From the NCBI RefSeq assembly GCF_003573695.1, contig NC_039358.1:11140326-11204325 (forward strand): a stretch of DNA of 64,000 bases, given 5' to 3'. The notes under the pieces were generated by a model that was given only the letters and a program-made list of their open reading frames with translations, had not been told where the DNA came from and did not search any database. Both the position numbers and the translations under genes were made by a program. The DNA is from Papaver somniferum (taxonomy: Eukaryota > Streptophyta > Magnoliopsida > Ranunculales > Papaveraceae). Positions 37,079-59,454 of this stretch are shown here, piece by piece. Position 1 is the first letter of the stretch. The number at the start of each line of letters is the position of its first letter.

Positions 37079-37095
37079 GGCTGAGTGGAGTAGAG
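37079..37095 (+). repeat. Left terminal inverted repeat
   Basis: GGCTGAGTGGAGTAGAG, preceded by TTA at 37,076-37,078. Confidence 0.82.
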
Positions 37096-37181
37096 GAGGG
37101 GAGGTATTCCTTGTACAGTGTAGACACATCAGCGGGAGGATATTACTGAGTGGAGTGGTGAGGGGAGGAATTTGAATATGG

Positions 37182-37292
37182 GCGAGGTGGACGACATCGC
37201 CTGGGCGAGTCCCAGCACGTCGCCCTACGAAGCGACGACAACCACATCGCTTGACCAGTCAACAGAAATTTGGGTGACGCCAACCGCCTCGC
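37182..37292. promoter_or_regulatory. Left cluster of 19-nt GCGA-N11-TCGC dyads
   Basis: Four units, each exactly 19 nt: 37,182 (GCGAGGTG-GAC-GACATCGC), 37,205 (GCGAGTCC-CAG-CACGTCGC), 37,232 (GCGACGAC-AAC-CACATCGC) and 37,274 (GTGACGCC-AAC-CGCCTCGC). They begin about 100 bp inside the left end and lie just upstream of the plant mobile domain gene's presumed transcription start, so they could serve transposition, transcription, or both. Confidence 0.75.
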
Positions 37293-38097
37293 TCCAGGGT
37301 TATTCACTATCTTGACGAATTCTTCTTCCTTCCTCTTCCTTCGACCTCAGTTCTTTTTCTCTAGGGTTTTTAAGTTTCTTCTTCTTATCTAGGGTGGAGT
37401 AATTCTTCTCATTGATCACGGGATGGTGTATGGGTTTTGTTCATCACGGGATGGTGAACATATGGTGTTAATCAATTTGATTTTAAAAGCTCATTGAGGT
37501 ATGTATTTCAACCCAAATCTAATGTATGATTTTGATTGTATTATTTCTTGATTAAAATTGATTATTATGATTTAAGTAATTGTATTTTTCTTGGTATGTT
37601 AGGGTTTTAGGTTTATATGAAGTCTGAGAGTAATTGGGTCTTGCAAATAACAATATTGGGATTTTTAGAATTGTTCTTGATATTTTCATAAGAATTATTT
37701 GTGAACAATACAATGATTTTTGTAACTTTAGATTCGTTCTTGATGAAATTTGGAATTGTTCTTGGTGTTTGTGGTGATTGTTAATGATATTTGTAGTGAT
37801 TGTCACTCATATTAATTTTTTGAATTATTTTTATTTGAATTGTCCTTGTTATTGATTTTTAATCGCAAACACCGACCAAGGAGTTATTATTATGTTTATT
37901 ATGTTGGGATGTAAGAATTATTGGTGATTTATAATGCTTGTGTAAATATTGTTAGATGTAAATGAAAGAATTAATAATGGTTTATAATGTAATGCTTGGT
38001 TACCTTTTAAACTTTTCAATTCGGATAAAAATTTATAATCATAAATGGAGAATGGGAGTAATACATGTTTTCCTTGTTTTCATTGTAGTGAATTCCC

Positions 38098-40125
38098 ATG
38101 TTTGCAAGTGAAATTTTTTCTAGGAGGGGTGATGAAAGCCATGTAAGTAAGGTTTGTTTGACACCAGATGCACCGGATAGGGGTTCGCAATTTAAAACAA
38201 ATTGGTGTTTGGTTAAAAAAATTTATGACATAGTGGTGTGTGATAATCCTCAAGCCCTTGATATTTTTAAAAAATGTGTTTTTTGTTCGTTGTTTGCATT
38301 GGATTTATCAAATGCCGATTGTAAATTAACCGAAGCACTTATGGAGAGATGGTGGAAGAAAACTAAGTCTTTTCATTTCCCGGAGTTCGAGTTAGGCATC
38401 ACACCATTAGATTTTGTAAGGCTAACTGGTATTCAAGTAGGTGGTGGACGAACGTTACCAAAATTTCCTCGTTGTTTGAAGAAGATAAATTATTTAGGAT
38501 ATGACAGCACGTATCTTGCTAGTGTGAAGTAAAACCGAGATGCAAGAGCACTTGCGTCTAAACAAGAGTCTAGAGAAGTTGGTAAGGGCGAGAAAGTTGG
38601 TAGGTGTGATTCTTTTGCTAGTGCCATCGCACATAGTTTTCTTGCACACTACATTAATAGAGCAATGAAAACAATAGGACTGTATGGAAAGAATTGACAA
38701 GAATTTTTTTATTATGGTGCATTGGTATATTTCTAATAGGCAACACCGACAAGAGTACAGAAATGATGGTTAGAATTGTTGAAGAATCTTGATAATGTGG
38801 GCGAATATGATTGGGGTAGCGCCGCATTAGGAAATTTGTATGACTGCCTTGACAAATGGACCTTTTCCGAGCATAGTGAAATGGGTGGCATGTAGAATAT
38901 TATAGAGTATTGGTACTACTCTATAATAGACGATGCTTTCATCGATAATCAGTGCATGTATCCTGCAATTTTATTATTTAACAAGGATAATCTTCGTGGT
39001 CAATTTGATAGCTTCAAGCATTCACTTACTTCAGCCCTACAACAGATAGACATGAGAAGTAGAGAAGCGGTAATATGGCAGCCTTGGTTAGATAATCAAT
39101 ACACTAACTTTCCGTAGTTTGTGGTGCCAAAAAACTTGTCAAAGAAAAGACTTGTTTTCTATGGCTGCAAGGGTGAGAGGTTGAGTGCGTACCTTGGTGA
39201 GAGATTTGTGCGACAGATAACTGGTGCAATAGTTATCCCATTTGATCCCCCGAATTTAGATTTTTTCCAGGAGACTGACGTTGAAGCGGTACATCAATAC
39301 TGGTTGAGTTCTCACAATTATTGCCATGCATGGTGGAAGGAGAAGAGTTCCTGAACTTGGTATCGTGATGGAGTTACACACGTACAGAATCATGATCTAC
39401 TTAATAGTACGCGTCTATGCCGACCATCCCATCCACCACCCGACATGATGTCTCAGTCCTATGGATATTATCCCGATGAGGAGTCGGTGAATGAACTACC
39501 AATAATTGATTGGCGTTTCGCGGTTTACATGAATGGTGATCTTACAGACTTGGTGGTGCCGATGCCTACACGTTATCCCAATAATTTTGATGGTATGACC
39601 GCCGGACGAGTAAGTATGTTACCTTGATTTTATTTTATTTTAGTTATTTGTTGGAATAAAATTTATATTTGTTGAGGGAAAGGAAGATGGATTAATTATT
39701 ATTATTATTTTTTTTAATTGTTAGGAGGAATTGTTGAACAAGTTATTCGAGCAACAAATGTTTATTAGTGAAAGTAAAAGAATTGTTCAGGAGCATACAA
39801 GAAAGTATTGCCTTCGTGGGAACTCTTCTTCCGGTTTTACCATCGGCGGGACACCGACTTGTAGTAGTTCACCCCAATTCCCAGAGGAACAAACAATACA
39901 CGTCAAGTTTTCTCAACAACAAGGTGTTGCGTCAACTTCCCAACCGTCAGGTGTGTATAATATTGAAGAATGTTACTTGCCGGGTGAACCAACACAAGAC
40001 CCCTATGCAAGTATGAATATCGATTTGGGGGGTCATGAAGATGTTCCCGTGGTTATGAATCTCGAAACCGGTCTTTCGTTGGATGGAAATGTTGATATGG
40101 TGTTGGATACCCCACCTAATTCATG
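38098..40125 (+). pseudogene. Plant mobile domain protein, eight in-frame stops
   Basis: The N-terminal half has the plant mobile domain (PF10536-type) signature: a Trp/helix region, then LMERWWKKTKSFHFPEFE, then LGITPLDFVRLTGIQVGG. Later blocks are VFYGCKGERLSAYLGERF and VEAVHQYWLSSHNYCHAWW. The 5' UTR seems split by an intron (37,499 GTATGT to 38,088 GTAG) just before the ATG. A coding intron 39,610-39,724 is in phase 0 (CGA|GTAAGT, TTGTTAG|GAG). Exon 2 ends in a glycine/proline-rich tail. Stops at 38,530, 38,695, 38,734, 38,737, 38,764, 38,893, 39,116 and 39,352 all lie in one frame, with no frameshift over 1.5 kb. It is the leftmost cargo gene of the giant element. Confidence 0.75.
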
Positions 40126-40924
40126 AGGTTAGAGTGAAACAACAAAATTTTTGAAACTAGTATGTATGTTAAAGAAAAAACTTTTTATATTTGTAGTTTT
40201 CTTCTTTGCCATCTTTAGTTTGATGTTGACTAGATGTATTTGAAGATTTTGGTATCTGTATAATAATCTTGTGATACACCTTGTGGTAGGGGCTTTAAGT
40301 TGTTCTTTGGTACGGTAGTGGGCACTGATTTCTTCCCAACTTGCGATCAATTTGATTCCTTTAATAATGTTTGCAGGGTATCCAACACAATAATGTACTC
40401 AATAATGCAGACATGTTTTATTGAATTTGAAAAACAACCTATCTTAATTATTGTAGTTTACCCATTAAAAGTATTGGTTCTCCGCGTTTTTTTGGCATCT
40501 ACGTCTCTTGTATTCTCAATGATTTCATTAATAGTGTTTGCAGGGTATCCAATACAATTTGGTAATCAATAATCCAAACCTGCTTTGTAGAGTTTGCTAA
40601 CGAACTACTTTATTTTTTGTCGGTATCCGAATAAAAGTGTTGTCTCTCCGCGCTACAAGTATAGAAACGTCTCCTTCAGCTTTTATACCTTGTCGGTATT
40701 CCAAAAATAATATACTTATTTATTAGTATTTGTAGTTTTCCCAAATAAAGTATTGGCCCTCCAACTTGTTAGTTTTCCAAGCTCTCGTTAGGTGACTATT
40801 ATACAACTTTAAAACTATTACCATTTTTTTCTTGTTCTGTGTATATAAATATGATACCCTCATAAGTATCATACACTACCTTTATTAAAAAAAAACCTCC
40901 ACTGTTAATTGTTTTCATTTTAAG

Positions 40925-41601
40925 ATGTCAACTCCATCATCATCAACTATCGAGAACATACTTAGAAGATGCAAGCAAGCAACCAAACCAATTACTGAAA
41001 TGGAAGAAGAGATACATAAAAGAAGCAAACAGACACGTTGTAATGCAAGCGACCAACAAAACCAATTACTGAAATGGAAGAAGAGATACAGAAAAGAAGC
41101 AAATAGACAGGTTGTAATGCAACTTCTTCTTCATCTGCTCATAAACGAAATCCTATAACTTATGAAAGAATAAATTCGCCATAGGCTATTAAAAAATATG
41201 AAGAGAAAATGGCATCAAATAAACGAGGTGAAGACCAATTCCAACTAAGAGAAAGAATGAAGCAAGTTGAGAAAGAGACCAAATGGGTTAAAAATTATTT
41301 CATAGTCATGGATTTTCCTCAAGAACATCAACACGAGAGTGTATTTTGGCACCAGGTAAGGGATGGTCCTTTCGTACCATGGTCGGGCGATAACCGGAAA
41401 AAACCACGCTTTCATTATCAAACTTCCCACGTCGTTGACAGATTCATTCATGTGAGGAAACTATGCACCAAGTACAATGAGTTTCTCACCAGGCACAGAG
41501 ATGACCGGTTTGCGGCACAAGATGCTTATACCAAGTGGAGAAAAGAACCATTTTATCATTTTGAGGCTGCCTTGATATTTGAATCTCGCAAAAATAAATA
41601 G
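40925..41601 (+). pseudogene. SANT-like gene with duplicated N-terminal segment
   Basis: TATATAAA at 40,842 precedes ATG 40,925 (MSTPSSSTIENILRRC). A segment of about 60 bp encoding the QLLKWKKRYRKEANRQ / PITEMEEEIHKRSKQ region is tandemly duplicated and puts part of the reading out of frame. One TAG follows (INSP-stop-AIKKYEEK), then an open frame from 41,209. The C-terminal half resembles the SANT family of this element: SVFWHQVRDGPFVPW, then FIHVRKLCTKYNEFL, then KEPFYHFEAALIFESRKNK, equivalent to the F-x-FEAC tail of the longer copies. No conserved 3' block follows. It could be expressed from 41,209 if that ATG is used. Confidence 0.5.
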
Positions 41602-42082: not shown

Positions 42083-42412
42083 ATGCCAGCATTTTCACTA
42101 GAAGAGGATTATTGTCTGGTCCAAAGCTTTTGTAAAGTTTGGGATGAAGAACAAAGTACCACAGGAAGGCGATTTTGGGGTCGAGTTACCAAAGATTTTA
42201 ATCGTACAAATGCTAGTAATATCAATAGGAATCACCAGCAACTCCAGCACCGGATTGTCGTGATAAAGAGGTTTTGTGTGCTCTTTAGGCAGTATGTTGT
42301 TATGGCAAATGACGATAAGGATGTGGCGATGGACATGTATGCAGCGGAACAGATGCGTCCGTTTAGACATTCCGGGTCGAATGAAATATTTGGTACTCGT
42401 ATATATAATTGA
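42083..42412 (+). CDS. Intact SANT/Myb-like small protein (type II)
   Basis: The frame is intact, 109 aa, single exon. MPAFSLEEDYCLVQSFCKVW is the first SANT-like helix (the ED-x-L-V-x-S/A-W pattern). TGRRFWGRVTKDFNR is the second, and QQLQHRIVVIKRFCVLFRQY the recognition-helix region, as in PIF/Harbinger ORF1 proteins annotated in plants under misleading names such as glutathione S-transferase T3-like. It lacks the C-terminal domain of the full-length version and ends NEIFGTRIYN. TATATAAA at 41,998 lies 85 bp upstream. The conserved 3' block begins 57 nt after the stop. Role inferred: DNA binding, possibly at element sites. Confidence 0.7.
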   Translation: MPAFSLEEDYCLVQSFCKVWDEEQSTTGRRFWGRVTKDFNRTNASNINRNHQQLQHRIVVIKRFCVLFRQYVVMANDDKDVAMDMYAAEQMRPFRHSGSNEIFGTRIYN

Positions 42413-42468
42413 ATAACGTGGTTGTGTCGTTTTTCATTTTACTTTATCGTTGTATTAGTTAAATAACA

Positions 42469-42600
42469 GGTTTTGTGGGTGTACCTCTACGTAAGCCCTC
42501 ACGAGACCCAACTCGTCCTCCAGGGTCACCTGGGGGTTTAAAGTCTTGTTGCAAGGGCTAAGTGGAATCGTGTTCCCGTCGACAAGGGAATATTATAATA
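42469..42600 (+). ncRNA. Conserved 3'-UTR structured block, copy A
   Basis: Shared core TTTTGTGGGTGTACCTCTA, GTAAGCCCTCACGAGAC, GGGTTTAAAG, GGGCTAAGTG. Possible folds are hairpin 1 ACGAG-ACCCAA-CTCGT, hairpin 2 CCAGG-GTCA-CCTGG, a weakened hairpin 3 TTGCAA...GTGGAA, and a further stem TTCCC-GTCGACAA-GGGAA at the 3' side. The enclosing stem GTAAGCC/GTCTTGT has one mismatch here. Confidence 0.7.
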
Positions 42601-43092
42601 AATTTGTCTTGTTTCTTTTTCCAGAATATTTTTTCAATAAAATAAATAGATTTTATTGCTTTAATAAAAAGTAGTTTGTTTGTTATATATATTTCGGTTT
42701 ATCTTTAACTTGAAAACAATACAATCTGCATAATTTATGGGGAAGTTTCCAATTGCATTGTCACCACATTTATTGTACAGTGTGACATTGTGTTGTCACA
42801 ACAACGTATGGCCTATAAATACTATTGCATCTTATTCATGAATTATATGTACTCGAAAATTCAGACGACATTGATTGGCGTTGTGTTGTTGTTTGCGTTT
42901 TGTTTTTTCCTTCTATTATTTCTTCGCATGATATTCGTGAACGTGGGAATGACAACTCTATACATTTTCACCGGTAATCCTATTTTGTAGTAATGCTATA
43001 TAAACACATAGACAACACATATACTCAACCATACCTTCTCACCCCAAGCTTGTCAAGTTTTATAATTTATTTTTGCAACAACATTCACTGCA

Positions 43093-43428
43093 ATGACATA
43101 TTCAAATGAGGAAGACAATGACGTCGTAACAAGTTTTTGCAAAGTTTTAGATCTGGTCCCAATGGAAGGAATGAACCAGACTGGTAGGAAATTCTGGGAT
43201 AGAGTTAAGGATGGGTTTGTGCTCGTCAATGGGAACCAGAACCGGAGGCCGGTGCACTCTCTGATGCATCGCATTAATATACTAAAAGGAAATTGTAAGG
43301 TATTTAAGAAATTTATGTTTTTCGCAAATGATGACCAAGTGGTTGCGCTATTCCTCTATGAAGCAGAAAGGAAGCATCCTTTTACAAATTTCGGCGCAAA
43401 CGAATTATTTGGTACTCATATTGGATAA
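43093..43428 (+). CDS. Intact SANT/Myb-like small protein (type II)
   Basis: Paralogue of the gene 0.7 kb upstream; 111 aa, one exon, no breaks. MTYSNEEDNDVVTSFCKVL, TGRKFWDRVKDGFVLVNGN and HSLMHRINILKGNCKVFKKF give the SANT-like layout, and the tail NELFGTHIG matches NEIFGTRIYN of the neighbour. The acidic start and basic centre are kept. TATATAAA at 42,997 lies 96 bp upstream and a 3' structured block follows 55 nt after the stop, so promoter, coding region and 3' block were duplicated as one cassette. Expression is not shown by sequence alone. Confidence 0.7.
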   Translation: MTYSNEEDNDVVTSFCKVLDLVPMEGMNQTGRKFWDRVKDGFVLVNGNQNRRPVHSLMHRINILKGNCKVFKKFMFFANDDQVVALFLYEAERKHPFTNFGANELFGTHIG

Positions 43429-43482
43429 TAAATAATGTAATACATCTTTTTTGTTTTCCCTCGTTGTATTAGTATAATAACA

Positions 43483-43612
43483 GGTTTTGTGGGTGTACCT
43501 CTAAGTAAGCCCTCACGAGACACAACTCGTCATCCAGGGTCACTTATGGGTTTAAAGGCTTGTTTCACGGGCTAAGTGCAATCGTGTTCCCTGCGACATT
43601 GGCATATTTTAA
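43483..43612 (+). ncRNA. Conserved 3'-UTR structured block, copy B
   Basis: Hairpin 1 ACGAG-ACACAA-CTCGT is perfect. The enclosing stem GTAAGCC/GGCTTGT is intact. Hairpin 2 is damaged on its 3' arm (CTTATGG). Hairpin 3 reads TTTCAC...GTGCAA with one mismatch. TTAATAAA follows the block and could be a poly-A signal. Confidence 0.7.
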
Positions 43613-43649
43613 TAAATTTGTTTCTTTTTTTGGAATCTTTTTTCAACAA

Positions 43650-45430
43650 ACGTACTTGCCTTTATAGCTCAAATTAGTAGTACCTGATTTGGATCCTTAT
43701 GGTGTTTGATGGTATTTTTCAATGATGTTGTAATAGTGGTTAAAACGGGTTCTTTTCAGACTTGTGAAGATAGATTTTTTTTTAGATTTTTATAAATAAT
43801 TATATGCACAATATTAACAAAATGTGGGCGAGAGGTATTGGGGCTTAGGATTCCACCATTGGTCGATATTAATGATTTAGTAAAACAATAATTATGCAAC
43901 TCAACATTTAAATTTATTCTAATAGTATTGCCTAGACATGTAGATTTTCAAAAGAATAGATGTTAATCCAAGCATAGAATATCAAAACTATTAAGTAAGC
44001 ATATTCTATCAAGAGAAAATACACCTAACTAATCAAAATCCTATAATCCATTTTAGTTCAATGCAAAAATCATAATAGAATTGCTATAATTAATTTAAAA
44101 TAAAGATAGATCACTTTTACCGAAACAACAGCTTCCTCCATCGCCCCAAGGATTGGTTTAGCTCATCAGCATGTAAACTTGCTCAAATGGTGTTTACAAG
44201 GATGAAATGGAGAAAATGATGAAAATTGGGTGTTTGCAACGTTTATAACTGTTGCAAATACCGTTACAAAGAACGATACATATGAAGTGCTGTAGTATAC
44301 GGAAGACTACGACCCACGCTTACACTGTCGCTGTCACTGTTGATAAATGACGGTTGTGCTGCGTCTAATGTTCTTCGTGTTATTGAGTTGCAGCAGCAGA
44401 AATGGTGACTCTGCAACTCGATTTTTCTTCACTCTGTAGCCTCCAAAGCTTCCCCAAACTCTCCACCCCCTTATCTTCTACCCCAGACACTCTTTTATAC
44501 TCAACATGACAAATAAATCACGCGTAATAACTCCATTAATTCCGTTTCCTTACTCACAGCAGCACGAGAATAATTTCCATTTTCTCTCCTTTTTTTATCT
44601 CTTCCATATGCCTGTATCTTCCAAACTCGTTGAAAACATATCAAATACGGAGTTATCACGCTGAAAACACACCCATTCTTTCCAAAATAACAGCGCCAGG
44701 ATTCCGAGTATCTCTCCAACTCTGTTTTTCGAAATCTCCACGCAACTTTCTTCTTTCTATCGAAACCAAACACATTACCATCCCTGTTCTGTTGAAACAG
44801 GATGGTATCAATCCAAGAATAATAACAAATCCGACCAGATGACGTTGGAATTCAATGCAGAAAATCTTGAGAAATTCTGTGAAAATACTCCTCCCCAGTT
44901 TTTGATATTAACCGAAAATAAACAGATTCAGTTCTTTCTTTTAATATCTAAGATACGTATGCGTCCCTATTTACATGGTAAGAGTTTTATCTTGCAATAA
45001 ACTCTTAAAAATCCCCCAAAATCTCGTCACAGATTCTTGCAGTTGAAATACCATTTTTTTCCGCCAAAACTGATTTGTACGTGAGGAAGATGGAGTGCCC
45101 CTTATCCTGTACGGGTTTGTGCGAATAGCAGGTGGATGTCTTGGGTGCAGATAACAGCTAGTGTGCCCCTTAGTCAGTGGAGTGCCCCATAGTAATAGGT
45201 TACCCCATATCCAAAACTGCGAGTCCGAATAACATGTGTCCTCCCGGTGCCTTTAGCAACTTTTCAAGCCGAATTTTCCAAAAATGCCTACAAACACACA
45301 AAAAACCATAATAAGGACGAAAACGAGTACTAACAACACGAAACATTGAGGACAAATTAGACACATAAATGCGTCTATCAGTGTTGTCAATTCATTTCGT
45401 GTCATAAAACAGTGACATCAATAATTCATA
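43650..45430. other. No recognisable gene
   Basis: AT-rich spacer inside the giant element between two SANT-like genes. Short frames on both strands at 44,500-44,840 overlap each other and show no family motif. The repeated phrase GTGCCCCTTA/GTGCCCCATA occurs at 45,095-45,195. Possibly an old insertion. Confidence 0.4.
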
Positions 45431-45573: not shown

Positions 45574-46065
45574 ATGGTGAACTTTAGCCAGCGAGAAGAC
45601 ATTTCCTTGATTAGTTCGTGGGTGATTGTTGCACAACATTATGATTATATAAATATTTTAATTCCCAATAACGTGTTTTGGGGTCGAGTTATGGCTTTGT
45701 TTACACAGTATGTACCAAACCACGAGAGAACTAGCCAATCTATTCAATGCACGGTGAACATGATCAAGAGAGCAGTCCGAGTTTATTTGTCAATTCAAAT
45801 AAATTTATACCGGACAGATTCCCCGAGACTTAGTTGTGCAAACATCGTAAGTGATTGTCATTTCCTTTATCCAATATCTTTTTTGTGTACTCTCAATGTC
45901 CAGAATAATTTGATATTTTAATTTGAGGTTGCAGGAACTCCTGACACGAGTTTAAGTTTTATAGCTGTTATCTTATTTTGAAGGCCAACTTACCGGAATT
46001 CAACCCGGAGCAAACACCATGGCCTGATCACACACCCCAAAATTCGGATGAGGAGTACTTATATA
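45574..46065 (+). pseudogene. SANT/Myb-like two-exon gene (type I), frameshifted
   Basis: Exon 1 (45,574-45,846) encodes MVNFSQREDISLISSWVIVA, NVFWGRVMALFTQYVPNHER and IQCTVNMIKRAVRVYLSIQ, with donor ATC|GTAAGT. The acceptor TTGCAG at 45,934 gives an 88-bp intron. Exon 2 needs a one-base shift and loss of a TGA to read FKFYSCYLILKANLPEFNP, then a polar/acidic end (DEEYLYR). This tail matches the C-terminal F-x-FYxCYxLLK motif of related copies. The final stop has also been lost: the frame runs into the 3' block. TATAAATA at 45,437. Pseudogene by these changes. Confidence 0.65.
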
Positions 46066-46070
46066 GATGT

Positions 46071-46195
46071 AGGTTTTATGGGTGTACCTCTATGTAAGCC
46101 CTCACGATACTATAACTCGTCCTCTAGGATTACCTAGAGATTTAAAGGCTTGTTGTACATGCTAAGTGCAGTCGCTCCCGGCGACAATGGGTTAT
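46071..46195 (+). ncRNA. Conserved 3'-UTR structured block, copy C
   Basis: The enclosing stem GTAAGCC/GGCTTGT is intact. Hairpin 2 is CTAGG-ATTA-CCTAG, differing from the CCAGG/CCTGG copies on both arms so that pairing is kept. Hairpin 3 TTGTAC-ATGCTAA-GTGCAG pairs with two G-U wobbles. Hairpin 1 keeps only ACGA/TCGT. Confidence 0.7.
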
Positions 46196-46438
46196 GGTTT
46201 ATTAATTGGTTATCTTGCATTATATGTTATTTGTACCTCAATCCATCTCCTTTTCCCGCAAAACATAATAAATCAGCCAGTGTTAAAACAAACATGCTAA
46301 AACCATAATTTGTAATTGATATTCCAACCCACATGTTACAAACATAACCTTACTGCACCAAAAATTAAAAGAAATACCAAAACAACAAAGGAAACATAAC
46401 AAATTACATTTAAAAAGTATTATAATAAAATCTTGTTA

Positions 46439-47857: not shown

Positions 47858-48068
47858 CTTGGATTTGATAACTAGGGTAGTTTATAAAATGAAAGATGAA
47901 AAATTGTAATTGGGTGGTCGAAAAAGACCGGAAATGGTTTTGGTTTGAAAATAAGATTACTGCTCGATATTTATACACAGTGCGCACCTGGATGGAAACC
48001 TGGAAACTAGAGGATAGCCTAACCGTCATATTCTTTTGTCCGTTGCAAATCTAGTGGCTCAAAACTGA

Positions 48069-48234: not shown

Positions 48235-48419
48235 TAAGTTTTTAAGCCGTGTGATCTCGACGGCCTTAATCATCGTGCGGTTAACAATCAACACACATGC
48301 ACGGCTCTATTTAATTTGAAATGTTATATATACACGACTGGTTTGTGATATGTTATCACAAACAAATCGAAAATCTTCAGCTATCTGTCTCCTGAGTCCC
48401 TTCCCCCCCCCCTTCAAAG

Positions 48420-48750
48420 ATGGTCAATTACTCCACCAGAGAGGATGTTGCCCTAACTAGAGCCGTGGTCGTTGTCACAAGAGATGGAGTTGTCGGACAT
48501 CTACAAACAGGTAGGCGATTTTGGGGTAGAATTGTGGAGGAATACAATAACCAATTTAATGTTCCAACCACTCGAACCACAGGTTCTCTACAGCACCGAG
48601 CAGGTATCCTTAAAAAGGAGTGTAGGTTGTATGCCGCAGCTATTGCCCCATTTCTGAGAAATGGACCGAGCGGTTGGAACGATGAGAAAAAGGTAAAAAG
48701 GCTAGTAAACTATACAAATAGTAATGAAGTTTAAAGATTGGTTTTATTAT

Positions 48751-48793
<43 letters not shown>

Positions 48794-49468: not shown

Positions 49469-49865
49469 GAGACTCAAGGAGTTGTAATTTTATTTTAACT
49501 GCGTGCTTTTTTTTTTAATTCACCAATGTTAAAGAAACTATGTAAGGCTATGGACTAAACAATAGTCTCGTCTTAATTAAGTAATTATTATGTTTTTAAT
49601 TTTAAAAAGCTTTAGTTGTATTAGTTTATTTTCACAACCTTGATGGGTGTAATCTGTTTTTAAATTAATGTAGTAACCGCAGTTTTAGTATTTCCGGCGT
49701 TCGTTATAAACTAACTACTACTTTTGTTAATCTCCAACATGGGTGAATACAATACACTGCTTAGTTATTGACTACGAAACCAAACTCACTGCCGGGTGAG
49801 ATGTGTCTGGGATGGTTTACATGAGGTTTACCAACAAAATCTTAATATCCAAAGTGTTTACGATT

Positions 49866-50362
49866 CTATCCGAGCCTAAACCACCTTCTTGGATTGAACT
49901 CATTCATTCCGTCCTTCATAAGGAGGAAGCATTAGTAAAACCTGAAATTTCATCCATTCCCTTCACGAAATTTTTTCTTCGCCATTGTTTCCTACCAGCA
50001 ATAAAAAAACCCCAAATTAGTATTTTTAATTTTATTATCTTTAAAAAAATACATCTTTTAAAATTATAATTACTTACGATGGTCTTTTTCGCTGTAGTGA
50101 ATGTCGTTGGCAAAATTCTAATTAGCGTAGCTTGGATGTCAACATACGTTTTCACATCTCTTTTGATACTATCCACTCTGTATCTTAAAAATTGCTTTAA
50201 TCTATTTTTTGGATTCTGGAAGTTTTGTAGAAAATGAGAATAGACCATGTCCCAGAAGTTATTGGATGGTGCTACTGCATAAACCACAACCGGAGCTATC
50301 ATTACACCTATCCATGCATGTATGGTTATCGTATATTTTTCAACGGTGAAGCTAACATTCAT
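49866..50362 (-). pseudogene. SANT/Myb-like two-exon gene (type I), two stops
   Basis: Exon 1 (50,362-50,078) encodes MNVSFTVEKYTITIHAWIGV, NNFWDMVYSHFLQNF and FLRYRVDSIKRDVKTYVDIQ. The donor ATC|GTAAGT and acceptor GCTGGTAG give an 86-bp phase-0 intron (50,077-49,992). Exon 2 in frame is ETMAKKKFREGNG-stop-NFRFY-stop-CFLLMKDGMNEFNPRRW, aligning with FKFYSCYLILKANLPEFNP of the copy at 45,574. Two in-frame stops and no frameshift. TATAAATA (minus) at 50,431-50,424, about 62 bp upstream. No 3' structured block seen after it. Confidence 0.65.
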
Positions 50363-50762
50363 TTTATAATATAGTAAAATCTTTAAGATTTGGTTGGGCA
50401 ATCTATATCAATACCCGTTACTCTATTTATAGGAATAAATAATGGAGTTGTCGTCCCTCCCTTGCAGTGACTCTTCACGGAGGTGTCGTCCCTCCCTTGC
50501 AGCTACTCGTCACGGATGTGTAATCTTTTTAAAGGAACTGGTGTTTTTAAATTGATAATATCAGATATACAGACATATCTTTTGTGTAGGACGTGACATT
50601 TCTATGTCAATAATTCGAAAAAAATTTGGTAATAATTTAGATGTGTCGGAATCACGAGGGAACGGATACACTGCAAACTTTTAATTGGAGAGAACCGAGA
50701 GGAATAAATTGTATTATTTATAATAATACAATTTGAAAAAATAACATAACAATGTCCCTGTT

Positions 50763-50873
50763 GCCGAACCAATGGTTGCACTTAGACCGTGCAACAAGCC
50801 TTTAAACCCCCAGGTGACCCTGGAAGACGATTTCGGTCTCGTGAGGGCTTACATAGAGGTATACCCACAAAAT
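50763..50873 (-). ncRNA. Conserved 3'-UTR structured block, copy D
   Basis: The enclosing stem GTAAGCC/GGCTTGT is intact. Hairpin 2 is CCAGG-GTCA-CCTGG and hairpin 3 is TTGCAC-GGTCTAA-GTGCAA, a perfect 6-bp stem. Hairpin 1 keeps ACGA/TCGT. It starts about 24 nt after the putative stop of the minus-strand gene ending at 50,897. Confidence 0.72.
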
Positions 50874-50896
50874 CAATTTATTTGATGCAATCATCC

Positions 50897-51377
50897 TTAA
50901 CGACGTGCTAACAATTGGAGGTCCATATAAGAAAAGTGATGCCTAAAAATGAGGTAGAAATTGTGATACATAAATGTCTTTCCCTTATGTTGAGGTATAA
51001 CTGCCGGACATTTGAATCCTGCAATAAAAAGCAAAATGTTGAGGTATGGATGAAAAATTAGAATTAAATTCAGGTAGACGTATTTATATTAGTGCTCCTA
51101 CAAGCATATCTTCAGACCACCCTTCAGGAAAATTGCGATAAATCGGTATCCGAAGTGCAACAGAAACGTTCACATCCTTCTTTATATTGAAGACCCTATA
51201 CTTTAATGATTTCCATGTCCGACGGTTGTCATTGCCAATCATTTCGGTAAAAATTTGGGCAACACTAATCCAAAACTCTTTATGTTTCTCTTTTGTTAAT
51301 ATGTTTGGATCATTCGAAACATTGCAGTAAGCCCATGTTAGAGCTTTGTCTTCCTGTGAAGTGTATTGGATTGCCAT
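50897..51377 (-). pseudogene. SANT/Myb-like two-exon gene (type I)
   Basis: ATG at 51,377 (MAIQYTSQEDKALTWAYCNV) begins a clean exon 1 with EFWISVAQIFTEMIGNDNRR and YRVFNIKKDVNVSVALRIP, then SEDML. The likely donor CTT|GTAGGA at 51,101 is weaker than the GTAAGT of relatives. The acceptor TTATTGCAG ends at 51,019. The exon 2 motif GKTFMYHNFYLIFRHHF matches the family tail but needs a different phase from exon 1, so either another donor is used or there is an indel. TATAAATA (minus) at 51,484-51,477, about 100 bp upstream; the 3' block follows. Exon 1 itself is undamaged. Confidence 0.6.
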
Positions 51378-52123
51378 TCTACGCAAATACAATATTTAAA
51401 AATAAAACTAAATGATAGTGAAAGGATAAATGTTTTAACTCAATGAAAATATGCAACTTTTATAAGAAGTTTTGTGTATTTATAGGTTAAATTTAACACA
51501 TCCATTAACAGTAAACGCCTTTTACTTTTTCCTAGAGTCGGGTGTCTATAATGGGCTTGATAGAGTCTACTGCATTAACAGTAACTACCTTTAACTTTTT
51601 CCAAGAGTTTGGGTTGCAGAATCGATCCCTTATCCATAGGTTTTATTTCGCACCTATTTTTAACAGTATACACCTTTTACTTCGTCCTATAGTATGATGT
51701 CTTTTAATTGGTCCGATGGAGGATGTCCATAGGTAATAATCAACAAATAGGGTAACAATACATGACCTAATAATATTTGAAAGAGTATTATAACCTTTTA
51801 CAAATGACCCACTCTTTTCACCAACGTCCCAAAATTTTTATAATGTTCATCGCTGTTCACAAAGGATCCTTTCGTATTATAAAAACGACCAGACGACTAA
51901 ACTTAGCTAGTTACCACCCACCAGATCATCTACGCATTGTTATTCACAACTACTTGGGATATAAATCTCTTTATCCTTATGAACACACTGTAACGACAAG
52001 ATTTTGTAAGGGGGATTTCATTTATAAATAATAATAATTTTTCCCTATAAATACACTCCATCAACCACTCAAATAAACATACCGTCAAACATAAATCCAT
52101 CCTTCAATTTCACTCGGTCAAAA

Positions 52124-52567
52124 ATGAATTCTAATCGCAATGGAAAACAAATTGTGTGTGTAGAAGCAAACCAAATTTGTACATTGTGTTTCCTTGATGA
52201 CCATTCAGCCATGCAATTCCCTTGGATGTATTCCAAGTTCCGGCAGAGAGGTGGTGCGGGCATCAAATTGTTACTCGAAGCGGAACCGGGAAAAAGTAGG
52301 TACCTGCATTGCCAATTCGATAATTGTCGTGAAGAAGCTCAGTGGTTGGAAGATGCGATCAAGTCCAAAGATGATAAAAAAAATAAACGAACTCTGCAAA
52401 AACATCAAAGATAAAGGGATAATTAAGGTTGAACATGAAAGGTGGCGTCATGCCCAGTCCCTGGATGTAAGTTTCTTATGAAACTGCATCGTTCTAGAGA
52501 TAAGAACACCTTTGGTGAACATTATTGGAAATGTCCTGGGTGTAAGTTGGTGGAATGGGCCGACTAA
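52124..52567 (+). pseudogene. GRF-type zinc-finger protein, frameshifted
   Basis: TATAAATA at 52,046 is followed 78 bp later by ATG (MNSNRNGKQIVCVEANQIC). The first zinc-binding-like block has GGAGIKLLLEAEPGKSRYLH, then CQFDNCREEAQWLEDAI. The second, after two changes of frame near 52,376 and 52,455, has PGCKFLMKLHRS, then HYWKCPGCKLVEWAD. Both follow the GRF layout (a Cys or His, then a basic/Gly turn, then C-x-x-x-C and an aromatic W-x-D). GRF fingers bind single-stranded nucleic acid. Its presence beside SANT genes with the same TATA box suggests another accessory gene of the element. Confidence 0.55.
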
Positions 52568-52645
52568 GTCTATTTTATGTTGCTCAATAATTTATGGTGT
52601 TATATTTTGTGTTTATGATGTAATGTTTAATCATGTCATTTTTTT

Positions 52646-54448
52646 GGGTTATTTTGTTTTTGGTACTTAGGTTTTGTCCAATATTTGATTTTGGTCTAAC
52701 ATTTGTCCAGCTTGGTGTTTGGTACTTGGAAAAAACGTTGATTATCGTTGACTCGGTTAACTTTTGACTTTTGTTTAGTAATTATTAAAAATATTATATA
52801 CAATCTAATTAATATACAAGTTTACTGTTATATCCTTCTACTTTACAAATATTGACGAAATCTTTTTATGTTTGGAAAACCTTCTTCTCCATCCCTTGAT
52901 CTCTGTCACGTCCGTCACCTCCACCACCATTATTCAACCAACTTCATTTTATGACCCTGAATTCCGAAACTGATCGAAGTTGATAGTCCAGTATTTGTAA
53001 TCTTAAACATGCAAGTTTTTATTGTAATAGATAACATCAATACTCGGTTTAATCCCAATCTGCAATAACACATGTCTCAACAAAACCCATTGTACTCTAG
53101 AAAACAACACAAATCTGCAGCAACACTTTACACTTACGTAAATTGATGCTCAAATTAAAACCCCAAATCCCCAATCAAATCAATCTGAGAAATAAAGTCT
53201 TACCATGATTATGAGCAGTAGGATTATTTCTAGACCAAAAAATATTAATCGCATTCGTTGCCTAAGAATCAATCACTACAACTATTCCTTTAATGAATTC
53301 TCCCCAAAAATCAATCGATTTTCTTCATACTTCTTGTATGTGCTGTCAATTTGGATTCCAAAACAAACCCACTTCTTCATTGAACTGATTAGAGAGATGA
53401 GTTCAGATGCAGAAGCTTACTAAGTTTACAAGTATACCCACTGAGTTGACGACCCTGATCTATCATGTTCTTCCCCAATTCCATCTCCTCAAACCTGATT
53501 TCAGATTCACCACCAGATTCTCGATTTCAGTATCAGTAAAAGTGTAAAACCCCCTTAATTTCTGAAGAATCCTAATTCAGGGAAATCCCCAGATTGAACC
53601 ATACAAACCCTAATTAATCAACTGATTCGATTCAAGTTCAAAACAAACATTCACACACAAATTAACACAAACCAAATATCTCGAATTGAATCAATTTACT
53701 CAAAGAAAAGGCAACTTAACTACAGTGAATTCAGAAGCTCCAATGGAATTCAAATTAAACCTAATTCAACTCTTCTTCAATTCAATCAATCAACTCGAAA
53801 TCATAATGAATAAATAAAATAAAATCAAACCAATTAATCTCATAAGGAACAGAAGAACCCTAATTTAAGAAATTCCCAAATTGAATCAAAACAAATCTAC
53901 CCATTTCATGATTTGGACGTTTTTTTATTCTTCTTGTTATTACGAACTATCTCTTCATCCACTGCTTCAAATAATCATGCAGCGACAATCTCAGAGAACC
54001 CAAACTCTTTTTCCTCACCAACAAAACCCTAGAATCATAATACATGTATTAAAATAGTACCACCAACAACAACTACAAAAATACCATCATTTACTAACTC
54101 TCTTATTGATTTCAATATCGATTAAACTAAAACCATCAGATATGTCACTAGGAGAATCATCTTTCTTTTTCTTTTTTTTTCTCACTGCTTCTAAAAGAAA
54201 GAGAACGAACAAAGGAATCCGTGGGAGTATACTTCTTGGTCCATATTAATAAAACGGAAGGGTATAATAATAATTACCCATAGTAATTAAATTTTATTTA
54301 AATTTATTCATAAATACTAAGCGGAAGTCCAGTTTTTAAAGAGTCAAAGCTAGTCAACGTCTTTTCCAAGTATCAAACGCCAAGCTGGATAAATGTTAGA
54401 CCAAACTCAAAAGTTGGACAAAACTTGAAACCAAAAACAAAATAACCC
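52646..54448. mobile_element. Nested TIR element with ~110-bp ends, Mutator-like
   Basis: The left end GGGTTATTTTGTTTTTGGTA and the complement of the right end GGGTTATTTTGTTTTTGGTT stay related for about 110 bp (GGTCTAACATTTRTCCAGCT, then TTGGAAAARACGTTGA). Flanking 9-mers are CATTTTTTT (52,637-52,645) and TATTTTTTT (54,449-54,457), 8/9 alike. Long inverted repeats with a 9-bp duplication fit Mutator-like elements. The interior has no coding frame that I can support. It is inserted in the giant Harbinger-type element, so it is younger than that element. Confidence 0.75.
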
Positions 54449-54531
54449 TATTTTTTTGGTCAATAACACCTGGTCTGATGTAATGCTTATGTTTTATGTT
54501 TATGTACTTTTTATGTTGTTTATGTTAACAT

Positions 54532-54765
54532 TTATTTGAGGTTGTTTATGTTCATGTTTCTGTACTTTCTAACCTCCTTTTTAATTATGGACAAATGAGT
54601 TGATAATTTTTTACCACACCTTCCATGAATATTTCCAATTATGTCGGTAAACTCCCCAACCACAAGATCCCAAAACCCTGGAGCGTCTTGGTCTCTTTGT
54701 TGATTAACACTGTATGATAATAAAGCAAAAGGACAAACTGCATAATACAATGCCTCTCTATACAC
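54532..54765 (-). pseudogene. SANT/Myb-like fragment
   Basis: The minus-strand frame gives REALYYAVCPFALLSYSV, GFWDLVVGEFTDIIGNIHGR and LSTHLSIIKKEVRKYRN, aligning with exon 1 of the gene at 50,897-51,377 (FTEMIGNDNRRTWKSLKYRV). The start region lacks the usual F-S-x-E-ED opening, and no exon 2 or 3' block was found. It lies just beyond the nested Mutator-like element. Confidence 0.55.
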
Positions 54766-55300
54766 TATTGGCTGACATCCAAGTGATTTGATTTATCAAT
54801 GCTAGTGGTCGACAACTCAATGGGGCATGTACTGAAAACACAATGTGATGGGTCTTTCATGTTAGGTGATAATTGTAGGTGTTAGAGACTGCTCGTATGG
54901 GTTTCTTCAAAATAGGGAACAAAAGTGTTTATTGCAATGAACTGTGTCAACCGTTAATCTGAAACTACTCTTCATGCTCATAAACACCATTATCTTTTTT
55001 TGAGCGTTCACTGGTCACAAATAGCCGCCTCGTCTTTCAAAGGTCATTTACTATTACCTAACAACCCTTACTCTTACAAAAAAGAATCATGCTACAGAAG
55101 ATGACATGATTACTCAAAATAATGCACGACAAATGATGACAACTCATGGTGGCAAAATCTCAATATTATTAATTTATTCCTTCCGGTAAAAAATTACAAT
55201 TAAACCCATCGAAGAATTTTAGTATAAATTTCTGAAAAACACCCCACAAGTCAAAATTTTAAAGTTTCATATTTTATTTCCACCACAATAATCACTCACG

Positions 55301-55642
55301 ATGCCACGTTTTTCAATGGACGAAGATAAGGCTCTAGTCATAAGTTATTGTAAGGTTGCAAATATGGATCATAATACAAAAAAACCTCCAACAGGTAGGG
55401 CGTTTTGGTTTCGAGTTAGGGAAGACTTTTTGATTCAAATTAGGAGTGGTAGCATTTGGTATTCTGCCCAACGAATCCAACACCGCGTTAGCATGCTAAA
55501 AAGGATTTGTGGTCGTTTTAGGCAGTATCAAGTTCTTGCAAATGGTAATCTTGCTCAGGTTATGGCCATGTATGAAGCAGAACTAGGGCAGCCTTTCAAA
55601 TATTTCATGGCCAATTATTTTTTTTTGGTTCTCGCATATTAA
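55301..55642 (+). CDS. Intact SANT/Myb-like small protein (type II)
   Basis: 113 aa in one open frame: MPRFSMDEDKALVISYCKVA, TGRAFWFRVREDFLIQIRSG and QRIQHRVSMLKRICGRFRQY, then MAMYEAELGQPFKYF, close to the genes at 42,083 and 43,093. A run of nine T's at 55,617-55,625 near the end probably caused a terminal frame change, since the usual NEIFGTRI ending is replaced by FFLVLAY (FGTRI-like text, TTTGGTTCTCGCATAT, is visible one frame over). TATAAATT at 55,223 lies 78 bp upstream. It has no sense-strand 3' block; the block at 55,831-55,945 belongs to the convergent gene. Confidence 0.65.
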   Translation: MPRFSMDEDKALVISYCKVANMDHNTKKPPTGRAFWFRVREDFLIQIRSGSIWYSAQRIQHRVSMLKRICGRFRQYQVLANGNLAQVMAMYEAELGQPFKYFMANYFFLVLAY

Positions 55643-55830
55643 ATCGAATATTTTTCTCATGATATTTTTTATGATGTTATGTCAGTTCCAAATTGGGAGG
55701 AGAGGTAATGATTATGATGTAATGTGTTTTCTTACTTATTGCAATGATGTAACAAACAACTTTTTAAATGGATACTTTTATTTTAAACATCGTAGTACAT
55801 TAGAAAAACATAATTAAAAACCCAACTCAC

Positions 55831-55945
55831 TCTCGTAGGAACCACAGTTACACTTAGCACGTGCAACAAGCCGTTAAACCCCAAGGTCACCCCAGAGGAC
55901 GATTTTAGTTTCGTGAGGGTTGATAACAGATTTACCCACAAAATC
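55831..55945 (-). ncRNA. Conserved 3'-UTR structured block, copy E
   Basis: It starts 23 nt after the stop codon at 55,968. Hairpin 3 TTGCAC-GTGCTAA-GTGTAA pairs fully with one G-U. Hairpin 1 keeps ACGA/TCGT. Hairpin 2 has drifted and does not form the standard stem; the enclosing stem is partly lost. Confidence 0.68.
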
Positions 55946-55967
55946 TATACAAACATAAATTATAGTT

Positions 55968-56467
55968 TCAGTCTTCACTGGATGAAGCAGATGAATTATC
56001 CGGCGATTCATACTCTGGGATTTTGGATACCATGAAATTATAGCTTTCATCGAATGTGAATGCTTCACCTTTTTCCTCTAAATACCCCGCTTTAACGAGT
56101 TCGTGCTACAACAACACAAGGAAATATACTTATTGTTGTAGTTTAAAATCAATCAGTTTAGCTTTGGACAGAATAAATTAGAAAATACTTACAAATTGTT
56201 CATATGACATGCTAATACGGCCGCTGTTGGAGATCCGTTGTTGAATAGCTATAAAATCGCAAATTCCTTTTTGGATAATCTGGTACCTATCATGAATTTG
56301 TTGAAGACTTATTCTCTTTGTATTCCCATAATCGCGTCTATATTGGTTGTATATCTTCGCCCAAAGGTTTCGGGCTCCGGCATTACAGGTGAGAGATCTG
56401 CTACTCGAGATTCTTTGTACCATGTTTTGGTGATTTGCAAATCTTCAATTGAATCAAATGATCCCAT
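55968..56467 (-). pseudogene. SANT/Myb-like two-exon gene (type III), one-base deletion
   Basis: Exon 1 (56,467-56,193) starts MGSFDSIEDLQITKTWYKES and would continue ETFWAKIYNQYRRDYGNTKR and QQIHDRYQIIQKGICDFIAI, but one T is missing near 56,363 (GAAACCTTTGGG versus GAAACCTTTTGG in the 3-kb paralogue). The donor TTT|GTAAGT and acceptor GTTGTTGTAG give an 87-bp phase-0 intron (56,192-56,106). Exon 2 (56,105-55,968) is perfect: HELVKAGYLEEKGEAFTFDE, then SYNFMVSKIPEYE and an acidic/serine end, SSASSSED. TATAAATA (minus) at 56,579-56,572, 105 bp upstream. Only this single deletion breaks it. Confidence 0.75.
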
Positions 56468-56984
56468 TGTTGTGTTAGTACAAAGAGTTTTGAGAGGTAT
56501 TGAAATCCGTGACAAGTTTTGCAAGGTGTATGAAAATAGGTGTTTGTTGTTTGGAGATAGTTAAACCTTGATATTTATAGGATCCAAATTACTAATCGGC
56601 GTGAAAATTGTTAAAACAGATCCAATTCACTTCTAAGATAAATAATCTTTACACACCTTAGTTACTTTTCACCGATAACCCTTCCTAATTACAAATAACT
56701 TATCATGTTCATAAACGCCCTTTACTGTTTTAAACACCTCTTGGATGACGACGAAATACCAGTCTCGTGCAAGAAGAGATATTTGAACGACCTTGGGTTG
56801 TGTTAAATCAATATGTATATATGTTGTCAGAAACAAGTGTTGGAAACACAAGAAAACTCTGCAGATGATTGGATCACTCAAAATAATGCATCACAAATTA
56901 TGACAATTCAGGGTCGAAATAGATCTAGGGATGATAATAATACAGACACTTCTCAAATAATTTACCACCGTCGAGTATTAAAAA

Positions 56985-57730
56985 ACCACCCTTATTCAAA
57001 TCATCCAATCTTTTTCCAAAATTCATTTACTGTTAACTAGGGACCCTTACTATTTATCTAGCGACCCTTACTATTTATCGAGAACCCCTACATTGCATTG
57101 ATACAAAATCGTGTCTTCCCAAAATACCAAAAGTCTGACAAAAATGCTAGTTGTGTGGTAAAACCAAACACATGGGTTACATGATAACATTTATTATAAA
57201 AGATATTGCTAGGAGTAAAGTTATTCGATGTAAACACCTTATACCCTGAATAAAAGTTACTTACTGATTTGGAAATTCCACAACCGTTCAAAAACTCCAA
57301 CGACTATAAACAAACCACCCTTATTCAAATCACCCAATCTTTTGCCAAAAGTCATTTACTGTTAACTAGGGAGCCTTACTATTTATCGAGAACCCCTATA
57401 TTGCATTAATACGAAATCGCGTCTTCCCAAAATACCAAATTCTGATAAAAATGCTAGTTGTGTGGTAAAACCAAACACATGGGGTTACATGATAACATTT
57501 ATTACAAAATATATTTGTAGGAGTAAAAAGTTATTCGATGTAAACACCTTATACCCTGAATAAAAGTTACTTACTGATTTGGAAATTTCACTACCGCTCA
57601 AGAACACCAACGACTATGAACAAACCACCCTTATTCAAATCACCCAATGTTTTGTCAAAAGTCATTTACTGTTAACTATGGGCCATTACTATTTATCTAG
57701 CAACCCTTACTAGTTATCGATAACCGTACG
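56985..57730. repeat. Tandem repeat, about 310-330-bp unit
   Basis: CTTATTCAAATCACCCAATC recurs at about 56,990, 57,320 and 57,630, each followed by CATTTACTGTTAACTA and CCTTACTATTTATC. Between them AGTTACTTACTGATTTGGAA is repeated at 57,255 and 57,565. About 2.3 copies. Confidence 0.75.
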
Positions 57731-57935
57731 TCTCGGGAAGAGTCAATTTTTTGTGTGGGATTTGTATTCGGCACTAGAATACCACTCAATACATTTGTGC
57801 TGAGGTCGATAACATACTTTATTTCAGTGGGTTTTTTTTTTCCACTTATTATTCCTATTTAAGCCAACAAATTCACTCAGTCCTCTTCGGTAACTAGGAA
57901 GATGAGCAAATTTATACTCTGTATAAAATTAAAGA

Positions 57936-58400
57936 ATCCGCTTTAGTAACGAAGAAGATTTGGGGGTTGTGGGGGCATGGATTTCAGTTACAAATCAAGG
58001 TCCACCGGGAGAATGTGAGAATGAACAATCTCTTTTTTGGCGCCGTGTTTTTCAGTCATTCGAAGATATTACCGCAAACGAAAACGGTAGAACAAAGATG
58101 TTTGTCCAAAAAAGATTTGCTTTGATCACGTTCGAAATTGATACTTTTGTGACATTTTTGCTCGACGTTAACATTTGTCATCCTCGTCTGCCATATGAAG
58201 CTCGCGTAAGTAAACACAACACCTTAATAATTACCTCTAAATAATCCAAAAAAGTCAGTACTTATTCATTTCGTGTTTTTATATTCATACAGAAAACAAG
58301 AGCTCGCATAGAATTTCGGGCAGAATCAAAGAAGGCATTTAAGTATGATCAATTGTACGAGCTCTTAAAGGACGTAGTCCCGGCATACAATGTAGAGTGA
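57936..58400 (+). pseudogene. SANT/Myb-like two-exon gene (type I), start lost
   Basis: The frame reads IRFSNEEDLGVVGAWISVTN from 57,936, where relatives have ATG and this copy has ATC. Then come SLFWRRVFQSFEDITANENG and VQKRFALITFEIDTFVTFLL. The donor CGC|GTAAGT (58,206) and acceptor ATTCATACAG (58,292) define an 87-bp phase-0 intron. Exon 2 is intact: KTRARIEFRAESKKAFKYDQ, then LYELLKDVVPAYNVE. F-K-Y-D-Q-L-Y-E-L-L-K shows the family's C-terminal F-x-F-x-x-CW-x-x-LK motif. A diverged 3' block follows at 58,517. The single start-codon change is the only break found. Confidence 0.7.
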
Positions 58401-58516: not shown

Positions 58517-58612
58517 AGGTTTTGTTGGTAAACTTCTTGTAAACCATCCCGAGACCCGACTCAGTCAAAAGGGACACCTATTGGTTTAAATTATTGTTCC
58601 ACCGTTAAATAA
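58517..58612 (+). ncRNA. Conserved 3'-UTR block, diverged copy G
   Basis: AGGTTTTGTTGGTAAACTTC, CCCGAGACCCGACTC, GGGACACCTATTGGTTTAAA and TTGTTCCACCG line up with the other copies, but the stems are largely lost. It starts 116 nt after the stop of the gene ending at 58,400. Confidence 0.5.
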
Positions 58613-59035
58613 AAATTTTCATTGGTCATTATATTGGTTAAATGTACTATCTTGTATTGTTGTTTGAAATTAATGAATTAAGTTAAACGTTTTTTAGTAC
58701 AATAGACATCATACCATACATTCAACGTTGCGTTTTTAATTTTTATTTGTTACTAACGAATAACATTAATATGTTCTTGGATGTTGCGTTTTAATTTTTA
58801 TTGTTACTAACGAATAACATTAATATGTTATTTGATGAGTTAGGCTTATAATTCTATAATTAATAAAAACACCCGCGTTAAGCTAGCTCAGACTGACCCG
58901 GGTAGTGAACCATAACTCTAGACTACACCACGAACGATTACGAGGAGAGCACGAATTAGATACATAGAGCGTAAATTTTATAGTATGGTGTAGCGGGGTG
59001 TAACATTAAAAAGGTCAAACAAATATTTAAAATAG

Positions 59036-59179
59036 GCGAGGTGGGTGTAGTCGCTTAGATTTTCTGGGCGATGTGACTGGGGTCGCCTGGAAGCGACTTC
59101 CACAACATCACTGAATTCAACAGAAGCAATGTCTGACGCCTCGCTAAAACAATTTTTATGGCGATGTCCAAGAGCTCGC
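59036..59179. promoter_or_regulatory. Right cluster of 19-nt GCGA-N11-TCGC dyads
   Basis: Five units of exactly 19 nt: 59,036 (GCGAGGTG-GGT-GTAGTCGC), 59,068 (GCGATGTG-ACT-GGGGTCGC), 59,093 (GCGACTTC-CAC-AACATCAC), 59,126 (GCAATGTC-TGA-CGCCTCGC) and 59,161 (GCGATGTC-CAA-GAGCTCGC). They lie 275-420 bp inside the right end. The two units with a changed outer box carry single G-to-A changes at a CpG. Confidence 0.75.
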
Positions 59180-59184
59180 CTATC

Positions 59185-59400
59185 TTTAAATCCCCGCTCA
59201 CGTCCCCTGAATTCGATCAGGTTCCGCTTCCTGCTTGCTGAAGACCGTAAGTAACTCAGTGTTCCATTCCGGGGAAATGAAAGCAGAACTCTTTCATTAC
59301 CTCTACATGTTCAATCTGTTTTTAGCGGTTTCCCCAGAGATCTTTATCATTAACGCAACCTTCATTTTGCAGAAATTCATTGTATTTGAATTAGGCTTTT
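59185..59400 (+). other. Possible outward exon-intron at right end
   Basis: Directly after the right dyad cluster, CTGAAGACC|GTAAGTAAC (59,247-59,249) is a good splice donor and CATTTTGCAG near 59,364-59,373 a good acceptor, with no coding frame. This resembles a 5'-UTR intron of a transcript starting near 59,185 and reading out through the right end. Speculative. Confidence 0.3.
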
Positions 59401-59437
59401 AGCCACAGTCGCCTGTCACTATCGTCCCCGTGCTTTT

Positions 59438-59454
59438 CTCCACTCCACTCAGCC
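59438..59454 (-). repeat. Right terminal inverted repeat
   Basis: The complement of GGCTGAGTGGAGTGGAG, followed by TTA at 59,455-59,457. Confidence 0.82.

Follow-up and report, generated by a model that had tools for sequence, protein, structure and literature searches.

We analysed a 64-kb stretch of opium poppy (Papaver somniferum) DNA, C1:11140326-11204325, hereafter the window, taken from the 2.7-Gb assembly that was also searched for related sequences. The subject is an interval of about 22 kb (37079–59454 of the window), which a preliminary description had read as a single Harbinger-type transposon holding about a dozen genes. Harbinger elements are textbook two-gene transposons. The interval is framed by 17-bp inverted ends that agree at 16 of 17 positions, with TTA on both sides, as had been described:

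37076–37078, no strand: left TTA, target-site duplication, read from the sequence
37079–37095, plus strand: left terminal inverted repeat, GGCTGAGTGGAGTAGAG
37144–37160, plus strand: near-copy of the end in the subterminal region, 65 bp inward of the left end
59438–59454, minus strand: right terminal inverted repeat, GGCTGAGTGGAGTGGAG when reverse-complemented
59455–59457, no strand: right TTA, target-site duplication, read from the sequence

With up to three mismatches allowed, the end pattern had a single extra match in the 64-kb window, at 37144, and three end-like matches were reached in 0 of 100 shuffles of the window. The 65-bp offset of the near-copy inside the left end recurs in several other copies. 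A tRNA scan detected no tRNA.

The middle of the interval holds the Harbinger transposase and a divergent SANT-like partner, as had been proposed:

46439–47281, minus strand: transposase, DDE half, assigned by Pfam
47291–47881, minus strand: transposase, N-terminal half, read as an open frame
48420–49397, plus strand: ORF1, divergent SANT-like partner of the transposase, with two or more exons as judged by eye

The DDE half matched Plant_tran (PF04827) at 1.6e-68 and DDE_Tnp_4 (PF13359) at 5.7e-14, the profiles of a Harbinger/IS5-like DDE transposase. The search for homologues returned 2093 proteins, several of them labelled HARBI1 among the 120 matches listed, and the window transposase was identical to Papaver somniferum LOC113348114 over 91% of the query. 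Between its two halves stand two in-frame stops that lie three codons from each other, and for this reason the window copy is probably unable to move by itself. ORF1 is conserved in a related stretch on C4, described below together with the copies on C8 and C6.

Besides ORF1, the element contains ten SANT-like genes found with an iterated hidden Markov model (HMM), where "some ten" small genes had first been proposed. The model was seeded with five window members including ORF1 and then rebuilt on its own matches. It returned 12 rows of open reading frames in the window, of which the one at 48396 is ORF1 and those at 56181 and 56312 form one frame-broken gene, leaving 11 alignable SANT-like genes with ORF1 included. 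The ten small genes are:

41209–41601, plus strand: gene 1, 85% amino-acid identity to the C8 copy
42083–42412, plus strand: gene 2
43093–43428, plus strand: gene 3, AlphaFold model with a mean predicted local distance difference test score of 87
45574–45921, plus strand: gene 4
49919–50362, minus strand: gene 5, shared with the C4 stretch
51087–51377, minus strand: gene 6, 73% amino-acid identity to the C6 copy
54535–54792, minus strand: gene 7, a remnant
55301–55639, plus strand: gene 8
56181–56467, minus strand: gene 9, broken into two frames
57933–58241, plus strand: gene 10, 93% amino-acid identity to the C8 copy

Foldseek alone, run on the gene 3 model, was uninformative, and a protein search started from one of the small SANT-like proteins yielded no candidate with enough words in common. 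The proteins whose genes are followed by the RNA element described next are about 25–45% identical to one another. Outside the interval, at 2366–3029, lies a further SANT-like remnant with an RNA element, 68% alike to 55825–56467.

This RNA element, of about 125 bases and three hairpins, is found 3' of seven of the ten small SANT-like genes and of the outside remnant:

42468–42594, plus strand: after gene 2
43482–43608, plus strand: after gene 3
46071–46196, plus strand: after gene 4
49780–49842, minus strand: after gene 5, shortened here and full length in the C4 stretch
50749–50875, minus strand: after gene 6
55821–55946, minus strand: after gene 9
58517–58642, plus strand: after gene 10
2489, minus strand: RNA element of the outside remnant

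Of the seven copies, 58517 and the short 49842 are weak, and the better window copies are 79–91% identical in DNA. The structural alignment comprised 16 copies; partial copies (window 49842, L056 8325) and the overlapping loci L001, L026 and L054 were omitted. Over the three hairpins 85% of alignment cells were paired, and 9 of 19 pairs were altered on both sides, with 22 such cells. In 500 shuffles the percentage paired, the covariation score and the count of doubly changed cells were never attained; doubly changed pairs were at least as numerous in 12 of the 500, and additional pair types likewise in 12, and related sequences can surpass shuffles even without a structure. When partners were slid by 1–3 columns pairing fell to 29–38%, a control biased in favour of the structure because the structure was drawn from the same sequences. 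An alternative 5' helix proposed by RNAalifold on 7 copies showed little covariation and was replaced by the three local hairpins. Within 36000–60000 the RNA element matched no Rfam family up to E 1, and a sub-threshold match of gene 5 to Rfam IS009 (E 0.25) was taken as chance. One more copy of the RNA element was observed at L055 7351-7476(-), inside the C6 copy, in a nested gypsy-like element, where it lies on the coding strand between an integrase-like frame and the terminal repeat.

Three further frames are present:

38092–39624, plus strand: probable plant mobile domain (PMD) gene, Pfam PF10536, a single frame with eight in-frame stops
39725–40126, plus strand: open frame after the PMD frame
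52124–52564, plus strand: small Cys-rich gene, also in the C6 copy

The assignment of the first frame to PF10536 stands on two pieces, colinear within a single frame (6.5e-07 and 9.8e-04), which cover positions 16–59 and 135–174 of the profile, but both score below the curated threshold (29.3 and 18.8 bits vs 34.9), the pieces having been searched apart and the frame being broken. Some of the eight stops might be intronic, and the open frame at 39725–40126 is possibly the last exon of the same gene. The Cys-rich gene had been labelled a GRF-finger gene; the zinc-finger GRF family was absent among Pfam matches up to E 1 in three pieces of sequence (one of the C6 copy, the others of the window), and we describe the product only as a short Cys-rich protein. 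As for cargo capture, the PMD gene adjoins the left end in other copies, but the family label of the Cys-rich gene is unconfirmed. The left end runs unbroken into the PMD at C5:156.9, C6:91.5 and C5:145.8 Mb, and joins it in two pieces at C11:87.2 Mb (40 of 61 candidate places scored).

A search for other copies with the same ends, suggested in the preliminary description, revealed a family. A 20-base pattern of TWA plus the end occurred at 57 genome places with at most one mismatch, vs 0 for the reversed control, and a wider end pattern with at most two mismatches gave 314 matches vs 39 for the control; the first 100 of the 314 formed the working list. Starting from the right end, five of five short copies (375–1347 bp, the window apart) paired a left-type start with a right-type finish. 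Non-autonomous copies of the miniature inverted-repeat type, measuring 330–1347 bp and bearing the family ends, are thus present in the genome. Of 23 paired copies inspected, window included, 19 had the same 3 bp on both flanks; 18 of these were TTA or TAA and one TGA, and the four non-identical pairs were TAA/GAA, TTT/TTA, ATA/TTA and ACT/TAA. Since the search pattern favoured TWA, it is the second flank that provides the real test of duplication. The window (TTA/TTA) and its relatives hence share two traits of PIF/Harbinger elements, a 3-bp TWA target-site duplication and short terminal inverted repeats common to a family. At C4:98.17 Mb, a candidate of 35 kb was discarded for want of a clear left end.

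Interior sequence recurs between these ends. The C8 copy (16,140 bp, TTA/TTA) has seven blocks at 71–93% identity that are colinear, in reverse, with the window: 59455–58460 (71–81%), 58321–57605 (93%), 56848–55402 (89–92%), 45694–45382 (83%), 42673–41941 (89%), 41896–40669 (88–93%) and 37348–37074 (76%). The C6 copy (18,112 bp, TTA/TTA) has the left end, 50091–51878 (79–81%), 52118–52433 (68%) and the right subterminus, so that SANT-like genes 5 and 6 and the Cys-rich gene are common to it and the window. The 2,878-bp C31515 copy retains the PMD block on the left, a single SANT-like gene and the right subterminus; in the 462-bp C34063 copy 69 bp of the PMD start remain between both ends, and the C9953 copy also pairs left and right ends. 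The C4 stretch, of 9 kb, contains the transposase, ORF1, SANT-like genes 5 and 6 and RNA elements in the same order and orientation, matching the window at 46225–47975 (the transposase block, 78%) and at 48414–49372, 49430–49790, 49790–50490 and 50720–51530 (70–78%), and about 20 kb downstream of it there is a family end, oriented as expected.

The transposase was also followed directly. It had 188 genome matches, part of them in the working list, and among the matches listed at least 13 loci, window included, carry a transposase at least 65% identical to P0002. Eight of the 13 are accompanied by a family end or PMD block oriented as expected (the window, C6:137.1, C5:145.8, C10:92.3, C10:126.8, C1:114.5, C29856 and C4:35.3), at distances of about 6 to 23 kb from the transposase with two exceptions. 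One exception is C1:114.5, with its PMD block 74 kb away. Over 98 kb at C1:114429236-114527039, a left end with PMD, a close transposase and a right-type end occur in matching orientation and may be a single element expanded by nested insertions.

Taken together, these data indicate that the interval is very probably one old copy of a multi-gene PIF/Harbinger DNA transposon lineage in opium poppy. The recurrence of interior blocks in order between the same ends argues for such a lineage rather than a chance pairing, and it supports the proposal of one mobile unit. The expectation that the whole interval travels together held for the blocks, which recur in order between the ends, but no second full-size copy was seen among those read.

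Several observations weigh against this interpretation. None of the copies read, besides the window, has the full 22-kb content, and the C8 and C6 copies are without a transposase. Nine other copies match just 8225 of the 21554 window-element bases, with the RNA element masked and copies cut at their ends; adding the C4 stretch raises this to 11270 of 21554. Stretches longer than 600 bp were unmatched in the nine copies at 38661–40668, 42674–43356, 43706–45184, 46218–49785 (largely matched at C4) and 52434–55401. About 8.4 kb of the C8 copy (8444–16867) is nested repeat DNA, an array of a ~2.5-kb unit, and about 13.6 kb of the C6 copy (3980–17558) is nested between 3.3-kb direct repeats and holds retrotransposon-like frames, labelled gypsy-like by eye. 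On its own, therefore, the large size of these two copies does not speak for a giant lineage, whereas the shared gene blocks do. Six of 30 end loci with 1.5-kb flanks read had no partner in reach, two of which later showed PMD or transposase nearby. Among the matches listed, five of the 13 close transposase loci were without an end or PMD block, and at C10:126.8 Mb the sole family sign is 62 kb from the transposase, so that coincidence or nested insertions have to be reckoned with here, as at the 74-kb distance on C1. The ratio of nonsynonymous to synonymous substitution rates (dN/dS) between the window and C8 or C6 was 0.36, 0.44, 0.48 and 1.02 for four SANT-like genes and 0.80 for a more diverged pair, and that of the PMD against C31515 was 0.62, so that constraint on single copies is weak or absent. 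Finally, the right flank repeats a stretch 33 kb leftward (59455–63833 vs 26229–34890, 78% and less) in a match that starts exactly at the element edge, 59455. The left flank showed no homology to the sequence upstream of 26229 (score 31 vs a shuffled maximum of 32). Hence this is not a plain insertion site, and the element may lie on, or may itself have produced, the join of an old tandem duplication. Tandem arrays of a ~210–220-bp unit were also observed in the window at 11663–12205 and 16156–17078, with similar sequence beside a short C14 copy.

Three other explanations were weighed. The SANT-like cluster could be host DNA captured once as a block, with no descent from ORF1, and the small proteins are indeed short and diverged, with only about 24–35% similarity to ORF1. 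They nevertheless align with its N-terminal domain, and the RNA element stands 3' of seven of their genes, which makes a single host capture unlikely; the internal duplication put forward in the preliminary description is supported by the 11 alignable genes and by the RNA element after 7 of the 10 small ones.

The interval could also be an ordinary two-gene Harbinger of 3–7 kb enlarged by other mobile elements nested in it. A precedent of the same size exists in the 21,696-bp MtPH-M-2-IIa span of Medicago (PMC2213677), nested repeat DNA makes up more than half of the C8 copy and more than half of the C6 copy, and the window copy itself contains a nested element and a 150-bp insertion, listed here with two other stretches:

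43706–45381, no strand: stretch absent from the C8 copy
52646–54448, no strand: nested element of 1.8 kb with ~214-bp inverted repeats (77%)
56972–57725, no strand: tandem unit of ~330 bp, two to three copies
59221–59370, no strand: 150-bp segment close to the right end, a copy of a separate repeat that C27088 and C8 do not have at this place

The first stretch is an insertion in the window, perhaps a nested one, or a deletion in C8. Recognised nested DNA in the window copy amounts to about 2 kb, or about 3.6 kb if 43706–45381 is counted. Apart from the subterminal near-copy, the interval is without an internal family end, and the SANT-like, RNA and PMD blocks belong to the lineage because other copies share them in order. 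Enlargement by nesting is on these grounds improbable.

That the ends come from two different elements flanking a host SANT-like gene cluster, as the single full-size copy among those read, the mismatch at 1 of 17 end positions and the SANT-like remnant with its RNA element at 2366–3029 might suggest, is highly improbable and largely refuted by the colinear copies, because left and right subtermini are paired in five of five short copies found from the right end and in C8, C6, C31515 and C9953, and interior genes recur in order between such end pairs.

For the multi-gene lineage, a plausible course of events can be proposed from the sequence. The DDE transposase and ORF1 would bind to the ends as well as to the near-copy 65 bp further in, and together would cut and paste the whole unit into TTA or TAA. 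Within the element, the DNA-binding domain of ORF1 and the 3' RNA element would have been duplicated to give about ten small SANT-like proteins, and the lineage would also have taken up the PMD. The small proteins would most likely assist the transposase or host chromatin factors as accessory partners that bind DNA, the PMD would most likely aid against silencing, and the RNA element would most likely govern 3'-end formation, stability or export of the small-gene transcripts. A bolder reading, in which the giant Harbinger lineage evolved like a small genome, with a core of transposase and ORF1, a battery of about ten SANT-like proteins derived from ORF1, an anti-silencing PMD and, 3' in its transcripts, a three-hairpin RNA control signal that an unrelated gypsy-like retrotransposon would share, is one that we hold only tentatively and think doubtful in full.

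No report of a plant multi-gene PIF/Harbinger lineage was found in the open-licence literature, judged mostly by titles and the starts of abstracts. The poppy element resembles plant PIF, Pong and Master in its Plant_tran/DDE_Tnp_4 transposase, putative divergent SANT-like partner, short ends starting GG, TTA/TAA duplication and many short derivatives. Candidate autonomous PIF/Harbinger elements are described as averaging about 4.1 kb with mostly two ORFs (PMC4482050), in contrast to about 22 kb and about a dozen genes in poppy. MtPH-M-2-IIa of Medicago truncatula likewise spans 21.7 kb between Harbinger ends and duplications, but its size is attributed to nested related elements and a gypsy insertion (PMC2213677), whereas the extra genes of the poppy element are common to several copies. 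PMD genes are known from MULE (Mutator-like element) captures and gypsy elements, for which an anti-silencing use has been speculated (PMC5418596); these are also mobile elements carrying a PMD gene, but of other classes, and the main text of that paper does not mention Harbinger. The poppy lineage would link PMD to a further transposon class, and the RNA element would be a structured element common to different transposon classes, which is testable.

Growth of DNA transposons by extra genes has been described for enlarged CACTA elements of Chondrus (16–20 kb, 4–5 ORFs) and for Pack-MULEs (PMC6431247), as well as for Starships (PMC12153272). These belong to other superfamilies, and the word "harbinger" is absent from the main text of the former review (PMC6431247). 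The poppy lineage would imply that a cut-and-paste transposon of plants can turn into a multi-gene entity while being neither a Helitron nor a Maverick nor a Starship. It would also offer a natural origin for Harbinger-derived sets of SANT proteins, for example in plant chromatin complexes. In HDP1/HDP2 and HHP1/SANT1-4, a transposase-derived protein acts with one or several SANT-type proteins in such complexes (PMC8616336); a similar pairing of a transposase-type protein with SANT-type proteins is proposed for the poppy element, but there the partners are host genes and do not lie together in one element.

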